DNA from: a bacterium
Lineage (GTDB): Bacteria; Myxococcota_A; UBA9160; UBA6930
Direction of reading: 5' to 3'
DNA length: 33,267 bases
Assembly: GCA_024228115.1 (NCBI GenBank)
Contig: JAAETT010000578.1
Location: 1 to 33,267 of the forward strand
Below, piece after piece: positions 1 through 15,178 of the stretch. The translations under genes and the position numbers were made by a program. Each line of letters opens with the position of its first letter. Position 1 is the stretch's first letter. The notes under the pieces were generated by a model. It was not told the DNA's origin. It did no database searches and saw only the letters and a program-made list of their open reading frames with translations.

Positions 1-17
1 GACATTCACGTTGGCAA
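1..17. repeat. Left attachment-site core (attL side)
   Basis: The first 17 bases, GACATTCACGTTGGCAA, are identical to 12383-12399 inside the tRNA-Gly gene and diverge at the next base. On the tRNA strand they correspond to the anticodon loop, the 3' half of the anticodon stem and the variable loop. The repeat begins exactly at the window edge, so the true repeat may be longer and may include the T arm and acceptor 3' end. Confidence 0.85.
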
Positions 18-4640: not shown

Positions 4641-5276
4641 ATGGCAAGGCGAGTAGCTCTCTACGCGCGAGTATCAACACGGGACCAGCATCCGGATGCC
4701 CAACTCGGTCGCCTTCGGACCTGGGCTGAACACGCGGACCTAGAGCCCGTCGAGTTCGTCGACAACGGCCAGAGTGGCCGCAAGGCTGAGCGCCCTGCCC
4801 TGCGCGAGCTTCTAAACGCCGTCAGGCGGCATGAGGTGGAGGTGGTTGCCACGGTGAAGCTCGACCGTCTGGCCCGGTCGACTCGTAACCTCTGCGAACT
4901 CGCTGACGTGTTCGAGGCTTCCAACGTGGACTTGGTCTGCCTGGATCAGGCTGTGGACACGCGCACGGCCGCAGGGAGGCTCCTCTACCGGGTCCTGGGG
5001 GCCTTCAGCGAGTTCGAGGCCGATCTCATCCGAGAGCGAACCCTCGACGGCCTAGCTGCCGCCCGCCGACGAGGCAAGCGCATCGGCCGACCACGAGCGC
5101 TCGGTTGCGAGGGAGTTGCCAGAGCGCAGCGAATGCATTCGAAGGGTCGGTCGTTGAGCCAGATTGCGGCGGTCCTGGGCGTGTCGAAGGCGACCATCCA
5201 CCGGGTCCTTCGCGGGTCACAAGGGGGCGAGAGGGGGAAGCGCCTAGAGTCGGACAGGAGATCCGCGATCGGGTGA
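4641..5276 (+). CDS. Serine recombinase (resolvase/invertase family)
   Basis: This 211-residue protein has the full small serine recombinase layout. The N-terminal catalytic domain has YARVSTRDQ with nucleophile Ser12, the conserved block KLDRLARSTRN, and FSEFEADLIRERT leading into the long E helix. RRGKRIGRP is the hinge, followed by a C-terminal HTH (about 150-195, SLSQIAAVLGVSKATIHRVL). Length matches resolvases and invertases (180-210). Such enzymes cut and rejoin DNA through a 5' phosphoserine bond at res or inversion sites. Its role here could be multimer resolution of a circular element or inversion of a segment; no inverted pair of crossover sites was found by eye. Confidence 0.93.
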   Translation: MARRVALYARVSTRDQHPDAQLGRLRTWAEHADLEPVEFVDNGQSGRKAERPALRELLNAVRRHEVEVVATVKLDRLARSTRNLCELADVFEASNVDLVCLDQAVDTRTAAGRLLYRVLGAFSEFEADLIRERTLDGLAAARRRGKRIGRPRALGCEGVARAQRMHSKGRSLSQIAAVLGVSKATIHRVLRGSQGGERGKRLESDRRSAIG

Positions 5277-5747: not shown

Positions 5748-6922
5748 AGCGCCCGCCCGACGAGTGGAGGCGCCGACTTGAGGCGCGAATGGCAGAGCGA
5801 AAAGAGCGCCTTCGAAGAGCCAGCGAGAAACCTGGACAGCCGAGGGATGTCGACCCGGCCGAGAAGACCGGAGAGATCCAGGCCGAACCGAGCGACTTCG
5901 ACGACGCTGATATGAAGAAGCTCACCGGAATCGCCCACATGAGCGAACCGGCGGGTAGTGATCGGCCATCCGGGCCAGCTGCGGATGACGCCCCAGAGCC
6001 CGAGTTCGCACTTCCCCAAAGCCAGCGGGCTCGCGAGCTCACACAGGAAATGATCGAGCTGATCAAGCAAGTCCAGTTGAGCGAGCCGGCCGGAGGGGGC
6101 GACGATCGGCGACCTGCGCGGCCTGATTCGCTGGCCGATCCCCAGTTCGAGCAGGACCTGGACCTTCGGCGGGTGAGACAGGGAACCCCCGACTATCGCA
6201 TCATCTCCATGGTGGAAGCCGTCATCGGCCAGTACCGCGCGATGGCGGAATTGGCGCCCGACGAGCGGAAGCTCGTCGACATTGGACTCGACCTGCTCAG
6301 CCTGGCGACCTCGCTTGAGCGGGAAGATCCCGCGGCGTTCGAGAGGGCCGTCGATCGGCTGAGAGCTGCAAGAACTCGCGTGTCAGCACCTCTCAGGAGA
6401 GAAGTGCCCCGACGGGATCGACCCGCCGACTTCCAGCGGGCCCACGTGAAGCTCGAGCGTGGGCGCCGCAGTGAATCTCTCACGTTCCGGTTTCGCGGAA
6501 ACGTAGCCCAGCGTGGTGTTAGTGACCGTCCTCATTCGGAGAAGATGACCAAGCGCCTGGCGTTCATCGGGCAGCGCCTAATCTGGCTCGAGACGATTTC
6601 GACCTTAGGCCTGGATGAAGTCGTCGCTGGGTACGGCGATGCACGCGATCGAGAGAAGGAGGCACGGTGCAAGCTAGATAAAGGCAGCCCCATGCTGGAC
6701 GCGTTCTTGCTCGCGGCGGACCAACTCCTCCAGGAAGAGGCGAGGATCACTCGCAGCACCCTGTTTCGACGCACGATGCGGATCTCATGGAACGCTCAGG
6801 CACCAGATGACCCCTGCCGCAGCGACGCCACCATGACGAGCTGGGTCCAGAAAGCACGCGCGGTCGCCGACCAAAGCCCGGCCATCGTCCCGACCGCTAC
6901 GAAAGACCCAGAGACACGTTAA
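5744..6922 (+). CDS. Unknown 392-residue element protein
   Basis: The start is ATG 5744 with CCGGAG about six bases upstream, overlapping the previous stop. Residues 1-130 are charged and probably disordered or coiled (RRRLEARMAERKERLRRASE). Residues about 145-230 form a helical segment (DYRIISMVEAVIGQYRAMAE, then LVDIGLDLLSLATSLER). The C-terminal part has FRFRGNVAQRGV and a further helical bundle. No enzyme motif or membrane segment is seen. It is the last gene of the left unit: a hairpin directly follows its end and the next genes begin about 80 bases on. Its frame also stays open upstream to 5105, overlapping the structured leader. Confidence 0.6.
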   Translation: MKRPPDEWRRRLEARMAERKERLRRASEKPGQPRDVDPAEKTGEIQAEPSDFDDADMKKLTGIAHMSEPAGSDRPSGPAADDAPEPEFALPQSQRARELTQEMIELIKQVQLSEPAGGGDDRRPARPDSLADPQFEQDLDLRRVRQGTPDYRIISMVEAVIGQYRAMAELAPDERKLVDIGLDLLSLATSLEREDPAAFERAVDRLRAARTRVSAPLRREVPRRDRPADFQRAHVKLERGRRSESLTFRFRGNVAQRGVSDRPHSEKMTKRLAFIGQRLIWLETISTLGLDEVVAGYGDARDREKEARCKLDKGSPMLDAFLLAADQLLQEEARITRSTLFRRTMRISWNAQAPDDPCRSDATMTSWVQKARAVADQSPAIVPTATKDPETR

Positions 6923-7260: not shown

Positions 7261-7863
7261 ATGGAGTCCTTGAGTTTTGCGAACTTCGAACTCGATCGGA
7301 GGGTACCCCCTCCACCAGCTGCGTACAGCCCCTCCCCCTTCGGGCTCATTTGGGCCGCCGCACCCCCGACCTGGCGAGTACCCCCTGACCAGATGGCAGC
7401 TTCGCCGCGGCGGCCGGGGCCGGCAAAGATGAGCGCGGTCTTCCATGAGGCTGCTTTCTTCGACCCCGGCCCGGATCTCAAGGACCTGGGCCTCGAGACG
7501 CTCATCCTCGGAGCGTGCCTCATGGGCGACATGCGGTGGCCCGGTACCGAACTGTTTTGGAGCCCTGCCAATGCACACATCGCCGCCTACCAGGCCACAT
7601 CCGAGGGCGAACCGAACTTCGCCGAGATCCGCAATTCGGCGCCAGAATGGATGAGACCGCACGTCACGCGTTCGCTGATCGACGCCGTCGACTCGTACGC
7701 AGGACCGTGGATGCTCGACCGCTACCTGGAGATTCTGCGTTCGCTCGCTTACCTGCGACGGGTCTTCTCTACGGCAGACGACATGGCCGCCGCTCTTCGA
7801 AAATCCCGCGCTGATGATGTTCTCGTTGGTGCAAGCGAGTGGCTACGAGAGGTGATCGGGTGA
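7261..7863 (+). CDS. DnaB-helicase N-terminal-domain-like protein
   Basis: From about residue 75 this protein resembles the N-terminal domain of replicative helicase DnaB. LETLILGACLMGDMRWPG and FWSPANAHIAAY are like the first helices, and LDRYLEILRSLAYLRRVF through VLVGASEWLREV is like the family's YL-x-x-L-x-x-x-A-x-x-R-R-L helix and final helix. No ATPase domain follows, so it is a stand-alone domain, which could bind host DnaB, a primase or the neighbouring DUF3987 protein. The first 55 residues are Pro-rich and may not be translated; ATG codons at 7393 and 7429 are alternative starts. Its stop overlaps the next start as GTGA. Confidence 0.6.
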   Translation: MESLSFANFELDRRVPPPPAAYSPSPFGLIWAAAPPTWRVPPDQMAASPRRPGPAKMSAVFHEAAFFDPGPDLKDLGLETLILGACLMGDMRWPGTELFWSPANAHIAAYQATSEGEPNFAEIRNSAPEWMRPHVTRSLIDAVDSYAGPWMLDRYLEILRSLAYLRRVFSTADDMAAALRKSRADDVLVGASEWLREVIG

Positions 7864-9476
7864 ACGATCCGAGAAATCCCGCCCTGGAGTTGGTCCGGGA
7901 AGAACGCGAGAGCAGCTGGCCAGATCCTGAACCGCTGGAGGCTACGCCGCCCGAGCTTCCCGCCTTTCCGACCGACGCCATCCCGCACTGGCTCTCGGAC
8001 TTCGTCACTGAGGAGGCAAGAGCCACGCAGACACCCCCAGATCTCGCGGCACTGCTCGCGCTTGCTGCGGTGGCCACGGGTGTGCAGGGGAAGGCCGTGG
8101 TTGCGCCAAAGAAGGGAGACCCCGGCTACACCGAGCCAATGAACATCTTCGTCGTCGTGGCGCTCCCACCTGCCTCGCGCAAGAGCGCGGTCTTCCGGGA
8201 CGCGACTCAGCCGATCATCGATGTCGAGTGCCAAATGCGAGACACCGCTCGGGACCTGGTTGCCCGGGCAGAGGCCCGCCTGCAGATCCTGCGAGACGCG
8301 ATCGACGCCAAGCAACGAAACGCGAAGAATCCCAAGACCACCACGGCGCGCGCGGATGAGCTCGCCAGCGAGATCGCGGAGCTCACGGTCCAGCTCGCAC
8401 GCGACGAGGAGGCCTGCCCGAGAATGCCCCGCCTCCTCGTTTCCGACATCACACCCCAGGCACTCGGCATGCGCCTCGCTGAACATGGCGTCTTGACCCT
8501 CGCAACTGCAGAAGGGTCAGAGGTCTTCGAGACCGCACGGGGCCGCTACTCCGCCGACGCGAGACCCAACTTCGACGTGCTCAAGAAAGCCCACGCCGGG
8601 GATTGGATTGCGGTCGATCGGGTCAAGGGGGAGCCACTTCGGTGCGATCGGCCCGCGCTGACGTTAGCGCTGGCGATCCAGCCCGCGGTACTACGGGATG
8701 CGCGAGCAGTTGAGGTGTTTCGGGGGGAGGGCCTACTGGGTCGGTTCCTCTTCGCGTTGCCGCAGACGCTCGTGGGATCGCGAACCTGGGACCAAGCCGG
8801 CGTTCGCCCGCGAGTGCGCGACCTCTACGACCAGATGATCCGGAAGCTCATTGAAATCCCTCGACCGGCCGAGCCGTGGGTTCTCACTCTCGACGACCAG
8901 GCGGAAGCGGCACTTCGCAACTTCCACGACCGAATCGAATGCCAGCTATCAGAAAACGCGGCGCTTGGCTGGATGACGGATTGGGCCGGCAAGCTACCCG
9001 GTCTCACGGTGCGGATCGCCGGCCTGCTGCACTGCGTCGAGTGGCTGGACTCTGTGGACCAGATGTTCATCGTCCCGATCGATCGAACGACCGCCACGCA
9101 GGCGATTCAAATCGCCGAGTACGCCCTGGCCCACGCGCAGGCTGCCTTGCTCGAGGCTCCGGAGGACAAGCTCCTCGCGGACGCCCGCTACGTGTGGGGC
9201 CGCATCCTTCTCAAGCACCGAGAGGAGGGAAACTCGCTGCCAAGCACCCGGGAGATCCACCGTTGGGCAGGCGGTGGTGGAAAGGATCGTCGGATCCCGA
9301 CCGCAACCGACACCGAACGGGTTCTCCACGAACTCGAGATCCGCGGATATGCGCAACGACACGACCGGAAGAAGGGCGGCCCGTTGTGGGAGATGAACCC
9401 CAAAGCACTGCGGGCTTCGGCACCTGTCAGCACTGTCAGCGTGTCAGCAGGGGGTACAGATGGCTCGGAGAACTGA
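7860..9476 (+). CDS. DUF3987 (YfjI-type) element replication protein
   Basis: This 538-residue protein starts at GTG 7860, sharing GTGA with the previous stop and with GAGAGGTGA as ribosome site. After an N-terminal linker, FPTDAIPHWLSDFV then TPPDLAALLALAAVA and the P-loop-like VALPPASRKSA (about residues 106-116) match DUF3987/YfjI proteins, which occur next to primases in plasmids, phages and integrative islands. A central coiled segment (about 130-175) precedes a helicase-like core. The C-terminal 80 residues form a probable winged helix (LPSTREIHRWAG to ERVLHELEIRGYAQR). It probably powers or primes replication of the element. Its 3' end contains the first copies of the 9-bp repeat array. 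Confidence 0.85.
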   Translation: MNDPRNPALELVREERESSWPDPEPLEATPPELPAFPTDAIPHWLSDFVTEEARATQTPPDLAALLALAAVATGVQGKAVVAPKKGDPGYTEPMNIFVVVALPPASRKSAVFRDATQPIIDVECQMRDTARDLVARAEARLQILRDAIDAKQRNAKNPKTTTARADELASEIAELTVQLARDEEACPRMPRLLVSDITPQALGMRLAEHGVLTLATAEGSEVFETARGRYSADARPNFDVLKKAHAGDWIAVDRVKGEPLRCDRPALTLALAIQPAVLRDARAVEVFRGEGLLGRFLFALPQTLVGSRTWDQAGVRPRVRDLYDQMIRKLIEIPRPAEPWVLTLDDQAEAALRNFHDRIECQLSENAALGWMTDWAGKLPGLTVRIAGLLHCVEWLDSVDQMFIVPIDRTTATQAIQIAEYALAHAQAALLEAPEDKLLADARYVWGRILLKHREEGNSLPSTREIHRWAGGGGKDRRIPTATDTERVLHELEIRGYAQRHDRKKGGPLWEMNPKALRASAPVSTVSVSAGGTDGSEN

Positions 9477-9626
9477 AACGCTACGAGAGATCAACAGAGA
9501 AGAGAAGATTACTCAGACCCCCCTTATGGAGACTGCTGACAGTGCTGACAACGCGGACACTTTGGGGCCGAAGATCGCCTTGGATCGGCACCTCAAAGCG
9601 ACTGTCAGCACTCCGATGCTGACAGT
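9424..9626. repeat. Iteron-like array of CTGTCAGCA, candidate replication origin
   Basis: The 9-bp motif CTGTCAGCA occurs directly at 9424-9432, with one-mismatch copies at 9433-9441 and 9441-9449, and again at 9602-9610. Its complement TGCTGACAG occurs at 9534-9542, at 9543-9551 (one mismatch) and at 9617-9625. The last pair forms a perfect 10-bp inverted repeat (9601-9610 with 9617-9626). Tandem spacing is 8-9 bp. Between the opposed clusters lies a more AT-containing purine-rich stretch (about 9450-9530). Direct and inverted iterons beside a replication gene are typical of initiator-controlled origins. Binding by the HTH protein encoded next door is an alternative. Confidence 0.6.
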
Positions 9627-9774
9627 TCCAAGAGGGCAACGCGGCCTCTCCATCACCGATCTCGCCGACCTCTACCACGACTTCGGAGCGGCAAGCGACT
9701 CTGCATCGGGAGATCGCGCGGGCCGGAAGAAACGACCCCACTCTCGGCGGTTGGCGGGGAGAGGCGACCGCTGA
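9460..9774 (+). CDS. Small unknown ORF across the repeat array
   Basis: This 104-codon frame starts at ATG 9460 (AGGGGG just upstream) inside the 3' end of the DUF3987 gene, and its TGA shares a base with the ATG of the next gene, fitting the overlapping operon. The product is hydrophilic. Its middle contains repeated TADSADNADT and ATVST stretches that are simply the translated 9-bp repeats, and the C-terminus is very basic (GRKKRPHSRRL). No family is recognised. It may be a real small DNA-binding protein, or origin DNA that happens to be open. Confidence 0.4.
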   Translation: MARRTETLREINREEKITQTPLMETADSADNADTLGPKIALDRHLKATVSTPMLTVPRGQRGLSITDLADLYHDFGAASDSASGDRAGRKKRPHSRRLAGRGDR

Positions 9775-10091
9775 TGCTCGACGGGGCGGCCCAGCACCCC
9801 GACCTCGCGGAACTCCGCGAGCTGGCCGAGCGCTACGGGCTCTCGGTCGAAACCCTTGTCAGCCGTCTCGCCCTCAGCCTCGACGAGGTTGCCAGAGCGG
9901 TCGGCACCTCGAAACGCACCGCCGAGGGCTGGCTCGCCCGTGGCGAGTTCCCCAGCGCCTGGAAGGACGGTGCCGTAGTCCGGATCCCGACCCTCGACCT
10001 CCTCCGCTTCCAAGACCGCAAGCGCCTCACGCAGCGCCCCCGCAACCCCAGCAACCTCCGTGAGAAGGCTCGAGATGCACTTTTTCGGTGA
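9774..10091 (+). CDS. HTH (excisionase/helix-turn-helix) DNA-binding protein
   Basis: This 105-residue protein has a central HTH of excisionase/MerR type (about 38-80: LSLDEVARAVGTSKRTAEGWLARGEFP, then AVVRIPTLDLLRFQ as wing and final helix). The N-terminal 35 residues are a Leu-rich helix (LAELRELAERYGLSVETLV) and the C-terminus is basic. It overlaps the preceding stop by one base (TGATG) and its end lies 49 bases before the integrase start, so it is co-transcribed with the integrase. It may be the recombination directionality factor, an operon regulator, or the protein that binds the adjacent 9-bp repeats. Confidence 0.7.
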   Translation: MLDGAAQHPDLAELRELAERYGLSVETLVSRLALSLDEVARAVGTSKRTAEGWLARGEFPSAWKDGAVVRIPTLDLLRFQDRKRLTQRPRNPSNLREKARDALFR

Positions 10092-10140
10092 TGACAACCG
10101 CGATCGCGTTATGGTGCCCGCGAGCAGGGAGGCCGGTGGG

Positions 10141-11421
10141 ATGGCAAAGGCATGGCTCGCTCGGGGCAAGCGGGGAGAGCTGATCATTCATGCGAAGGGG
10201 CGCATCGGCGATCAGGTGCTCCGCCGGCAGAAGCGCGTCCCCGACGACGATCCCGAGCTCGGCGATGAGATGATCCGCCAGCTCAACCGTGACTTCCTGA
10301 TGAGCAACTTCTCCTGGCTGACCCGGGCAGCCGAGCGCGCCGACATCGGACCCATTCCCCGTAGGCGCCGCGGACCGGTCTTCTCTGAGTGGGCCGACCG
10401 GTGGCTCGAGGACCTGAAGGGTGAGATCGAAGAGAGCACCAGGCGAAACTACAAGAGCCATGTTGAGGACCTGAAGCGCCGCATGGGCAAGGAAACCCTG
10501 GCTTCGATCAGCCTGGGCGCAGTGAAGGTGTTGCGAAAGCAGCTCAGTAGTTCGCTCGCCGCCCGGACCGTCCAGTCGCGGCTCGGAGTCTTGCGACTCA
10601 TCCTGATCGATGCCCGGGAGGACGGCCTGATCGACTCGACGCCCTTCGACTCCCCCAGCCGCACCCGGCGGACCAAGAAAGGCACGGCCGCGACGTCGAC
10701 CCGTCGGATCACCTTCCAGCCCTACAGCTTCGAAGAACTCGCGGCGCTCGCAAAGGTGCTTCGCCAGCCGCGAACGCCTGACGAGCGGCGGTTCTTCCCG
10801 CTGACCGAAGCGCTCCTCTACACGGGCCTGCGGTGGGCCGAGCCCGCTGCATGGGTGTGGCCCGACCTCTCGATCGCGGGCGGCAGGATCGAAGTACTTC
10901 GCACGCTCCCCAAGCACGGCGTGATCCGGCTAGAGGAGTTCACCTCGCTCGAGAAGGTGAATGAGGCGTTCCCACCGAAGACCGGCACGTCCTGGGGCAT
11001 CACGGTTCGGCGGCCGCTGCGGGAGCTGTTGCTTCGACAGCGGCAGGTCAGCTACCTGGGGCGAGAGAACGGCTGGGTCTTCCCGAACAGCCGCAAGGGG
11101 CATCTTCACTATCCGAACTGGTTGCGCCGCGGCTGGGAGCCGGCGCTGCGCCGAGCTGGTGTTTCTCCGCGAGCTGGTGACGCGCAGAAGTCGCTACGCC
11201 GGACCTACGTGGTGAGTTCACTCGTCTGCGGCCGGAACCCGAAGGAGATCTCGGCCGAGGTCGGGCACACCACGAGTCGCATGGTGCTCGGCGTCTATGA
11301 CGCCTTCCTGGATGCCTCGGGGTGGCCGGCGGACCATGAGCGGCGAAAGCTGGCGGCGTTCTACGGATGGCCCGATCCTACGGTCCTGGCCCGTGAAGAC
11401 GCCGAGGAGCAGCAAGGATGA
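10141..11421 (+). CDS. int: Tyrosine integrase
   Basis: The ATG at 10141 is preferred (GGGAGG nine bases upstream), giving 426 residues; in-frame starts at 10075 or 10111 would extend it into the preceding gene. The N-terminus is a small arm/AP2-like segment (about 1-80). SAM-like core binding follows (about 83-180: FSEWADRWLEDLKGEIEEST). The catalytic domain has LYTGLRWAEP (Arg231), KSLRRT (Arg353), GHTTSR (His376) and VYDAF with nucleophile Tyr386. The first position of the usual H-x-x-R box is Lys350 rather than His. It catalyses integration and excision at the tRNA-Gly anticodon region. It lies in the element's last operon, and its stop overlaps the next gene as ATGA. Confidence 0.93.
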   Translation: MAKAWLARGKRGELIIHAKGRIGDQVLRRQKRVPDDDPELGDEMIRQLNRDFLMSNFSWLTRAAERADIGPIPRRRRGPVFSEWADRWLEDLKGEIEESTRRNYKSHVEDLKRRMGKETLASISLGAVKVLRKQLSSSLAARTVQSRLGVLRLILIDAREDGLIDSTPFDSPSRTRRTKKGTAATSTRRITFQPYSFEELAALAKVLRQPRTPDERRFFPLTEALLYTGLRWAEPAAWVWPDLSIAGGRIEVLRTLPKHGVIRLEEFTSLEKVNEAFPPKTGTSWGITVRRPLRELLLRQRQVSYLGRENGWVFPNSRKGHLHYPNWLRRGWEPALRRAGVSPRAGDAQKSLRRTYVVSSLVCGRNPKEISAEVGHTTSRMVLGVYDAFLDASGWPADHERRKLAAFYGWPDPTVLAREDAEEQQG

Positions 11422-12200
11422 GTGACAAGCAGCCGGAGTGCTTTGTGATCATGCCGATCTCGAACCCGAACCCGGAAAAGTACAAGCCGGATCACTTCCA
11501 ACGGATCTACGAAGACGTGTTCGTTCCAGCGTGCGAACAGGCGGAGTTCCATCCAACGCTCGCAAGCCGTTCCCCTGAAACGAACATCATTCACCTCGAC
11601 ATCCTTCGCCGTCTTGTGGAGGCGCCGATGGCCCTCTGCGACCTATCCGCGTTGAATCCGAATGTCTTCTTCGAACTGGGAATTCGGCAAGCATTCGACA
11701 AGCCGGTCGTACTCGTCCAAGAGGAAGGGACTCCTCAGATCTTCGACACTGGGGTGATCCGCACTCTGGACTACCGACCGAACCTAGACGTACGAGAGGT
11801 GCCCGAGGATCTCGCGAAGATCGCGGAAGCCCTGACCGAAACCTTCAATTCGCCGGCCGACTCCGTGAATTCGCTAGTGCGGCTGTTGGAACTCTTGCCC
11901 GCTCGATTGGGCTCGCCAGACGACGAGGAAGGCAAGCGGTTCGAGCTGATTCTCAATGAACTCCAGGCGATCCGTAGCGACTTGGCCAAATCACGCCTGC
12001 GAAGGGCGGCTGAGCTGGGTCCCCCGTTGGGGCTGGGCGGCCTCAGTCGAAGTACACCCAACTTGATGGACCTCCTCGGAAACCAGCAATCCCTCAGCTC
12101 GCACGACTTTGGTGGCAAGGAGGACCTGGCAGCCGGGATCTCCGCCCTCAAGCGTATCACGAGTGATGGTGCCGAGGACTCAAGTGACGACGGAAGCTAA
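11418..12200 (+). CDS. Nucleoside 2-deoxyribosyltransferase/TIR-like fold protein, possible defence effector
   Basis: This 260-residue protein has an N-terminal Rossmann-like domain (about 1-140). CFVIMPISNP, HLDILRRLVEAPMALCDLSA (Asp75), NPNVFFELGIRQAF (Glu86) and KPVVLVQ match the nucleoside 2-deoxyribosyltransferase superfamily. There the Glu in the N-x-x-x-E-L-G block is the catalytic nucleophile position, and relatives act as nucleotide- or NAD-cleaving immune effectors. The C-terminal 120 residues are helical, then Ser/Gly/Asp-rich, with no known domain. The start ATG overlaps the integrase stop (ATGA) with AGGAG upstream. It is the last element gene before the attachment site, a usual cargo position. 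Enzymatic activity is inferred, not shown. Confidence 0.65.
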   Translation: MSDKQPECFVIMPISNPNPEKYKPDHFQRIYEDVFVPACEQAEFHPTLASRSPETNIIHLDILRRLVEAPMALCDLSALNPNVFFELGIRQAFDKPVVLVQEEGTPQIFDTGVIRTLDYRPNLDVREVPEDLAKIAEALTETFNSPADSVNSLVRLLELLPARLGSPDDEEGKRFELILNELQAIRSDLAKSRLRRAAELGPPLGLGGLSRSTPNLMDLLGNQQSLSSHDFGGKEDLAAGISALKRITSDGAEDSSDDGS

Positions 12201-12258
12201 CCGGCTGGCTGGCCAAGCAGGTTCTCGATTCGCGCCGGACCTCCAGCCACACTGGGTC

Positions 12259-12288
12259 AGGTCGGGCATAGGTCGGGCAAGGTCGGGC
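12259..12288. repeat. Right-end phased AGGTCGGGC repeats (putative arm sites)
   Basis: Three direct copies of AGGTCGGGC start at 12259, 12270 and 12280, i.e. spaced 11 and 10 bp, one helical turn. The segment 12259-12279 is identical to 121-141 at the left end. The placement about 100 bp inside both ends of a tyrosine-integrase element fits arm-type binding sites. Confidence 0.65.
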
Positions 12289-12315
12289 TGGGCTGTTGTT
12301 AGTCTGAACCAGCCC
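12285..12315. terminator. Hairpin between the last element gene and tRNA-Gly
   Basis: GGGCTGG (12285-12291) and CCAGCCC (12309-12315) are perfect inverted repeats around a 17-base loop (12292-12308). The hairpin lies between two convergent transcription units and could stop the element operon before it runs into the tRNA. There is no strong T run, so termination is uncertain. Confidence 0.35.
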
Positions 12316-12354
12316 ATCCAGACACGCGTAACCTGCCGGAACCAGGGAGAAAAG

Positions 12355-12430
12355 TGGAGCGCGAGACCGGATTCGAACCGGCGACATTCACGTTGGCAAC
12401 GTGATGCTCTACCAACTGAGCTACTCGCGC
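12355..12430 (-). tRNA. tRNA-Gly (anticodon GCC)
   Basis: The minus strand gives a full 76-base cloverleaf. The acceptor is GCGCGAG/CTCGCGC with discriminator T and encoded CCA. The D arm is GCTC-AGTTGGTA-GAGC, the anticodon arm TCACG-TTGCCAA-CGTGA (GCC, reading GGC and GGT glycine codons), and the T arm GCCGG-TTCGAAT-CCGGT. All stems pair. It serves as the integration site of the element to its left and remains intact after integration. Confidence 0.97.
12383..12399. repeat. Right attachment-site core within tRNA-Gly
   Basis: This segment is identical to bases 1-17. It covers the anticodon loop (TTGCCAA on the tRNA strand), the 3' anticodon stem and the variable loop. The left side of it (12355-12382) is tRNA 3' sequence supplied by the element; the right side (12400-12430) is the original chromosomal 5' half. 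The crossover therefore probably falls in or near the symmetric anticodon stem-loop. Confidence 0.8.
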
Positions 12431-14523: not shown

Positions 14524-15178
14524 GGTAACGACGATAATACGAAAGGACCCGCCGAACGTATTCCCGCGTCTCGGCATAGGGCGGAACGCCTCGGTGGCGG
14601 TCTACCGCCGTCGGGCCGGCATTGTAGGCCGCCAGGGTGTGGGTCCAGCTGCCGTAGCGGTCGTGAAGGCGGGCCAGATAGCGCACCCCGCCGTCGATGT
14701 TGTCTTCGGCCTGAAACGGCTGGAGCACGCCCAGCATCTTCGCCGTGTCTGGCATCAGCTGCATCAGGCCCATGGCCCCTTTGGGTGAGACGGCCTGGGG
14801 ATCGAAGGCCGATTCTGCGTGGATCACCGCCTTCACCAGCGCGGGGGGAATCCCCTGCTCCAGGGAATGGGTCCGGATCACGCGGTCGAAGGTTCGCACC
14901 GGTCGGCGGCTCGCCTTCTTGGTCCTGGGCGCTGCCTTGTAGCTATTGGGCAGCTCGAAGCTGCGATAGCGGGCATCCGTCGGATCGACATTCGTGAAGT
15001 GGACGACGCCGCGGGCGTCGACATACCGGTAGAGCCCCTGGGCCAGGGCGCCCGTCGTGCCGATGCAGAGGGCGATCAAGACGAGGGCGAACGGGGCCAT
15101 CGCACCGAGCCGGCACGCGACACGATTTTTCCCCGGGGCGTTGTTCCCCATCCGGTTCGAGAGATAGACTCGCTCCAC
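14504..15178 (-). CDS. Lytic transglycosylase with DUF4124 domain
   Basis: This 224-residue protein cleaves the MurNAc-GlcNAc bond of peptidoglycan to form 1,6-anhydroMurNAc. The GTG start at 15178 has AGGAG seven bases upstream. A basic N-terminus precedes a hydrophobic signal (about 27-46, APFALVLIALCIGTTGALAQ). DUF4124 follows (LYRYVDARGVVHFTNV). The SLT domain (about 105-205) contains VIHAESAFDPQAVSPKGAMG with the catalytic Glu of the ES motif, GLMQLMP, and LAAYNAGP. It acts in the periplasm. It is divergent from nadB with only 33 bases between the starts, so the two promoters must overlap each other or the coding regions. Confidence 0.92.
   Translation of the reverse strand: MERVYLSNRMGNNAPGKNRVACRLGAMAPFALVLIALCIGTTGALAQGLYRYVDARGVVHFTNVDPTDARYRSFELPNSYKAAPRTKKASRRPVRTFDRVIRTHSLEQGIPPALVKAVIHAESAFDPQAVSPKGAMGLMQLMPDTAKMLGVLQPFQAEDNIDGGVRYLARLHDRYGSWTHTLAAYNAGPTAVDRHRGVPPYAETREYVRRVLSYYRRYHGDFSR

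Follow-up and report, generated by a model that had tools for sequence, protein, structure and literature searches.

The contig JAAETT010000578.1 (assembly GCA_024228115.1), from a bacterium of the lineage Myxococcota_A; UBA9160; UBA6930, carries a cluster of short repeats in and just past the end of a gene for a DUF3987 protein, which raises the question of what these repeats do and which protein recognizes them. The window that we analyzed, 33,267 bp, is one whole contig of a 700-contig, 6.4-Mb assembly. A preliminary description had proposed that the repeats form the replication origin of an excised circular element. With a probability of roughly 0.8, we conclude that the array is the replication origin of an integrative element of about 12.4 kb and that it is bound by the C-terminal winged helix of the DUF3987 helicase.

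Facing repeats at the 3' end of a DUF3987 gene

Within positions 9425-9624 we located seven exact copies of a 7-bp word, which reads TGTCAGC on the plus strand at 9425, 9434, 9442 and 9603 and on the minus strand (GCTGACA) at 9535, 9544 and 9618. These positions bear out the seven copies, the direct and inverted orientations and the tandem 8- to 9-bp spacing first described, and a repeated word is indeed present, but the exact word shared by all copies is 7 bp rather than the 9 bp originally given. An 8-bp version, CTGTCAGC, is exact in five of the seven copies. The copies are spaced by 9 and 8 bp in the left block and by 9 bp in the right block, which is extended at an exact 9-bp step by an eighth, degenerate copy (GCGGACA, 9553-9559; core GGACA at 9555, one change). 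The core therefore consists of three left-pointing copies, 86 bp, and three right-pointing copies, with an outer inverted pair following, such that three TGTCA copies in the last DUF3987 codons face three (T/G)GACA copies. The features of this region are as follows:

7860-9476, plus strand: DUF3987 (PF13148) gene, predicted AAA+ initiator helicase; its start codon, GTG, is shared in part with the stop codon of the ORF before it (GTGA)
9425-9448, minus strand: left iteron block, three TGTCAGC copies (9425, 9434, 9442) within the coding end of DUF3987
9451-9534, no strand: proposed DNA unwinding element, low in GC and purine-rich, between the facing blocks
9460-9774, plus strand: 104-aa ORF across the array, with weak codon periodicity and no family match
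9535-9559, plus strand: right iteron block, GCTGACA at 9535 and 9544 and GCGGACA at 9553, in exact 9-bp steps
9601-9626, no strand: outer inverted pair, ACTGTCAGCA-6 bp-TGCTGACAGT, with TGTCAGC at 9603 and GCTGACA at 9618

The left block lies inside the DUF3987 gene, which ends at 9476, and the array is thus partly embedded in coding sequence, as had been noted. The perfect 10-bp inverted repeat reported at the end of the array was also recovered (9601-9610 / 9617-9626), and a longer inverted repeat of 16 bp with 100% identity connects the two blocks (9425-9440 / 9535-9550). We rejected a terminator reading of the outer pair, which is not terminator-like. The 104-aa ORF may be fortuitous.

To gauge the array against chance, we shuffled the segment 9300-9750 while preserving dinucleotides; none of 3000 shuffles contained any 7-mer at five or more non-overlapping copies, compared with the seven observed. 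By this 7-mer copy statistic, no other 203-bp window of the contig ranks above the array region. Elsewhere in the 33-kb contig TGTCAGC has just two further copies, at 6381 and 9857, and TGTCAGCACTGTCAGC has no other occurrence in the 6.4-Mb assembly.

The stretch between the blocks fits its earlier portrayal as a purine-rich segment of lower GC, with 50% GC compared with 65% for the contig and a purine fraction of 0.63-0.67. Its GC content falls within the lowest 0.4% of similar-size windows, and of all 50-bp segments in the contig, the second least stable (start 9468) lies here. No DnaA box (TTATNCACA, one mismatch allowed) was found in or around 9424-9626, and no promoter-like site in 9300-9900.

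The array lies in an integrative element at tRNA-Gly

The left third of the contig is an integrative element of about 12.4 kb, which extends from window position 1 to about 12399 and has a tRNA-Gly attachment site. The features that define its ends and its integration genes are as follows:

1-17, plus strand: left att core, which has the same sequence as 12383-12399; the contig start falls within the repeat
9774-10091, plus strand: HTH_17 protein (HTH_17, 5e-10; PHROG excisionase, 6e-8; TIGR01764, 1.1e-5, under its cut-off)
10060-11421, plus strand: tyrosine integrase (PHROG_1 integrase, 6.7e-33; Phage_integrase, 3.4e-4)
12383-12399, plus strand: right att core, located within tRNA-Gly(GCC) (12355-12430, minus strand), in its anticodon arm

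The 17-mer att core occurs at only these two sites in the assembly. Direct repeats of AGGTCGGGC, which lie on the left at 121 and 132 (121-140) and on the right at 12259, 12270 and 12280 (12259-12288), are placed 103-124 bp inward of each att core, at near-equal distances, and are probably arm-type sites of the integrase that mark the ends of the element. In two sister genomes that contain the tRNA and the right flank (L129 and L131), homology to the window ends about 8 bp past the tRNA 3' end, which is consistent with different sequence beyond that point. In a third sister genome (L130), homology extends to 12258, so that the segment 12258-12355 may belong either to the element or to the old chromosome. 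Beyond the tRNA 3' end, window positions 12258-12355 match L130 positions 1273-1360 (genome G004) at 87-88% identity, and G004 encodes an ankyrin-repeat gene further left; this stretch of the window may stem from an att flank that was captured, or from another element inserted at this tRNA. Compared with three sister genomes, the anticodon arm carries C to T at 12388 and G to A at 12405, apparently a compensated base pair.

At the replication-integration end, the gene order is HTH (7000), a 200-aa ORF (7261), DUF3987 (7860-9476), the array, HTH_17 (9774), integrase (10060) and a TIR/nucleoside-deoxyribosyltransferase-like gene (11418). The last of these (11418-12200) shows a weak match to a PADLOC TIR-type defence effector model (1.3e-5) and a Pfam nucleoside deoxyribosyltransferase match (0.027), and could be defence cargo. 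Besides the tyrosine integrase, the element encodes a serine resolvase (4641-5276; PF00239, 9e-42), whose role may be to resolve multimers of the circle. The scan of element proteins, which took in a subset of the element's ORFs, recognized no primase, matched no plasmid Rep family and brought up no genes for helper-phage induction, packaging or interference.

The DUF3987 protein as the likely iteron binder

The DUF3987 protein matches PF13148 with an E-value of 6.1e-83 and 279.4 bits, compared with a curated cut-off of 27, over profile positions 1-362 of 364. This is its sole Pfam match, and the protein has no fused primase domain. It also matches the PHROG family annotated as DNA helicase (1.8e-50) and contains a P-loop-like motif, PPASRKS, of which K108 is invariant in the alignment. 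The AlphaFold2 model, built from an alignment of 51 sequences, has a pLDDT of 91.8 and a pTM of 0.86, and predicts a winged-helix domain at the C-terminus:

9159-9407, plus strand: codons of the winged-helix C-terminal domain, the proposed iteron binder (residues 434-516, AlphaFold2 model)

The predicted elements of this domain are helices at residues 434-456, 463-469 and 482-494 and strands at 498-501 and 509-512, and its residue R464 is present in at least 90% of sequences. A fold search of the PDB returned winged-helix matches to MntR/Fur and weak helicase matches to MCM/CMG (TM about 0.33-0.35), and a search of PDB sequences with the protein found no relative. In a viral library, the matches were phage DUF3987 proteins and helicases. 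The tail residues 525-538, which are encoded over the left iteron block, have a pLDDT below 50 and are predicted to be disordered. Based on this model, we consider the winged-helix domain of DUF3987 itself the likely binder of the iterons.

The 200-aa ORF upstream (7261-7863) is translationally coupled to DUF3987. Its assignment as a DnaB N-terminal domain is unsupported, as it has no family match and its single-sequence model has a pLDDT of 44.

The preliminary description had named the HTH protein at 9774-10091 as candidate binder. That assignment now appears less likely; the protein resembles excisionases, which by its sequence matches appears the more likely role, and arrays also occur where the next annotated genes are not HTH or integrase genes, as described below.

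Arrays recur at the 3' ends of DUF3987 genes

DUF3987 loci were gathered by alignments and Pfam searches that covered the genomes of relatives, the phylum, viral contigs of IMG/VR, phages and plasmids, and for every locus we determined where the DUF3987 stop codon lies. Single-protein scans for close relatives in genome and viral collections had yielded almost no matches. The final survey comprised 105 loci at less than 80% identity, and repeats spaced by 8-10 bp were found at the DUF3987 3' end in 55 of them, as against 4 of the 315 windows drawn as controls from those loci; this count combines a repeated word with 8- to 10-bp spacing and, like those that follow, overstates independence, as the surveyed loci share ancestry. 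A blind search for repeated words found significant arrays near the stop codon in 25/73 loci, compared with 7/292 random windows of the same loci. Among all 4-mers, GACA was the most enriched at 9-bp same-strand spacing (35/73 loci; controls, 8/730), and after clustering at 50% identity it was found with 8- to 10-bp spacing in 13/40 loci, compared with 17/800 control windows. With the GACA hypothesis fixed beforehand, held-out new viral loci gave 13/31, compared with 34/620 (Fisher p=2e-8). The preliminary description had tied its reading to conservation of the repeats in related elements, and this comparison favors it, as the arrangement is seen again at the 3' ends of DUF3987 genes from phages, plasmids and islands, the held-out loci among them.

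The geometry of the array recurs as well. Adjacent copies are separated by 9 bp in 77 cases, by 8 bp in 14 and by 10 bp in 8. TGTC copies peak at the stop codon, GACA copies lie 80-230 bp downstream, and among loci with both orientations the inward-facing arrangement (24) exceeds the outward-facing one (7). For blocks of opposite orientation with 30-180 bp between them, 39 of the 42 loci have a lower GC content in the intervening DNA than in the locus itself (p=3e-10; median difference, -15 points). Roughly half of the DUF3987 loci yielded no array with the methods used; K-12 yfjI of E. coli and a yfjI gene on an E. coli plasmid are among those without one.

Arrays were also found on two circular plasmids, an 18-kb plasmid of Streptomyces sp. 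NBC_00562 (L124, NZ_CP107792.1), where the array lies at about 14540-14800, and a 19-kb plasmid of Pseudomonas (L125, NZ_CP043577.1). The replication-type genes listed for these plasmids are DUF3987/YfjI, plus a prim-pol gene in Streptomyces, with no other obvious plasmid replication initiator. GC-skew of the two plasmids showed no clear switch at the array. These small plasmids are good experimental models.

The word itself varies. One locus (L139) carries copies of GCTGACA, identical to the word in the window, at 9- to 10-bp steps, and TGACAGAA is common to Streptomyces and one viral relative. The layout is retained around a different word in some relatives (CGCACAAC, GTTCAAC or GCCATCA), several island copies use CGCACAAC or CCCACAAC, GCCATCA or AAATCGAA, and arrays of the same kind with other words are present at L004, L024, L027, L036, L170 and L141. 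The clearest different-word version is that of the viral locus L170, in which direct GTTGAAC(G) copies on both sides of the stop codon face three CGTTCAAC copies across a 68-bp gap, partly within coding sequence. The layout outlives the word, in keeping with an initiator and a target that change together. Motif similarity was associated with winged-helix identity beyond AAA+ identity (partial correlation 0.20, Mantel p=0.002), an effect confined to closer relatives, with no correlation among pairs below 40% identity. We regard this correlation as suggestive and do not use it as proof of the binder, which we therefore name as a proposal.

Comparison with known replicons

Classic iteron plasmids of the RepA/Rep_3 type carry short direct repeats beside a replication gene and an unstable stretch. 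In contrast, the window has no Rep family among the proteins scanned and no DnaA box in the region, and its repeats are set downstream of a helicase gene, in facing blocks on either side of the unstable stretch. The proposal of a replication origin for an excised circle therefore survives as the best reading in a form like that of SaPI, PICI and SCC elements, but not with the organization of a classic iteron plasmid.

In PICIs, two sets of iterons flank an AT-rich stretch, the rep-ori segment drives plasmid replication, and this organization was once called unique to PICIs (PMC6092414). SaPI Rep and SCCmec Cch2 each use a C-terminal domain to recognize iterons that lie shortly past the end of the gene encoding them, and three 5-nt direct repeats are required for Cch2 (PMC7581432). 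Like the SaPI/PICI replicon (pri-rep-ori), the window has iterons directly 3' of the gene for an AAA+ initiator and two iteron sets around an AT-rich stretch, in this case three facing three, and the C-terminal origin recognition of SaPI Rep is paralleled by what we propose from the model for the DUF3987 C-terminus. The window differs from SaPI/PICI in that its initiator belongs to the DUF3987 family by Pfam match, no primase was recognized and the repeat word is another one. The proposal also resembles SCCmec Cch2 and its putative origin, in which the C-terminal domain of a helicase binds direct repeats that lie in the intergenic DNA after the helicase gene. By analogy with these systems, a SaPI/PICI-style origin is the best explanation of the array.

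DUF3987 proteins have themselves been linked to mobile elements. The detection model for PICMI satellites defines 'prim' by DUF3987 and DUF5906 profiles, and 'prim' is required for normal replication, its deletion lowering satellite copy number (PMC10803314). PICMI and the window share the gene set of integrase, AlpA/HTH_17 and DUF3987, but PICMI lies at fis in Vibrionaceae whereas the window element lies at tRNA-Gly; no iteron or origin is described for PICMI (PMC10803314), whereas the window has the order DUF3987-array-HTH-integrase. The DUF3987 domains of PrimPol-PV1 are predicted helicases of mobile elements, and winged-helix origin recognition has been suggested for this DUF3987 family of primase fusions as a prediction without DNA sites (PMC5862659). 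In contrast to PrimPol-PV1, no primase domain is fused to the protein in the window, and candidate sites are identified. The layout thus has precedents in PICIs and SCC elements; in the open-access literature searched, we found no description of it for DUF3987, of a DUF3987 DNA target or of the origin of DUF3987-carrying elements, which does not by itself prove novelty.

Alternative readings

The position of the array just upstream of the HTH and integrase genes allows the reading that the repeats are operators through which the HTH protein at 9774-10091, or another regulator, controls those genes. HTH_17 proteins bind DNA, and the outer 10-bp inverted pair resembles a dimer site. However, two phage loci (L022 and L023) have arrays beside DUF3987 genes whose next annotated genes encode neither HTH proteins nor integrases, the window shows no promoter-like site in the region searched, and operators would not be expected to enclose the low-stability stretch that separates facing blocks in 39/42 loci. 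We consider regulation of the downstream genes an unlikely function for the array.

Iterons outside origins occur in plasmids, and the array could accordingly be an incompatibility or copy-control locus, or an accessory DUF3987 site for helicase loading during helper-dependent replication, with the true origin elsewhere in the element. The half of DUF3987 loci that lack an array speak for this possibility, as some must use another site. The unstable stretch between facing blocks, however, is the expected core of an origin, and the same position is a working origin in PICIs (PMC6092414); we rate a non-origin site as slightly less probable than operators. The array might also consist of chance repeats with no function at the DNA level, arising from short tandem duplication or from codon bias in the disordered tail, and the left block does lie in disordered-tail codons. 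Yet both strands carry copies, some copies fall beyond the gene, the frames differ, none of the shuffles approached the observed number, and the family-wide and held-out enrichment refutes chance statistically at the level of the family, which makes this explanation very improbable.

A model for replication of the element

The window fits the scheme drawn from these systems closely. We infer that DUF3987 binds the TGACA copies of the array, melts the stretch between the blocks and starts replication, and that it does so after excision. In the SaPI/PICI-style origin that we favor, the AAA+ helicase encoded just upstream would bind the (T/G)GACA-core iterons of the excised element through its C-terminal winged helix, with one DUF3987 oligomer assembling on each facing block. 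The two oligomers would jointly melt the low-GC stretch (9451-9534) and be loaded as helicases, after which a primase, from the host or of other origin, would begin synthesis on the excised circle. With the left-block iterons written into the codons of the disordered tail, helicase and target would travel together.

With less confidence than we place in the origin of this one element, we lean toward a broader conclusion, namely that DUF3987/YfjI helicases are a large and ancient class of self-contained replication initiators in phages, satellites, integrative elements and small plasmids. Each would have its origin at its own 3' end, in which facing, 9-bp-phased iterons surround a melting stretch and an ancestral GACA core has turned over with the winged helix. 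DUF3987 is still classed as a domain of unknown function; if this conclusion is true, one could test directly what the family does and where its origins lie in many phages, Streptomyces and Pseudomonas plasmids, PICMI-like satellites and genomic islands, and the changes in repeat word would offer a natural set for the study of joint change of initiator and origin. The PICI-type organization of origins would then be far more widespread, and origins would be predictable from sequence for thousands of mobile elements whose origins are unknown.
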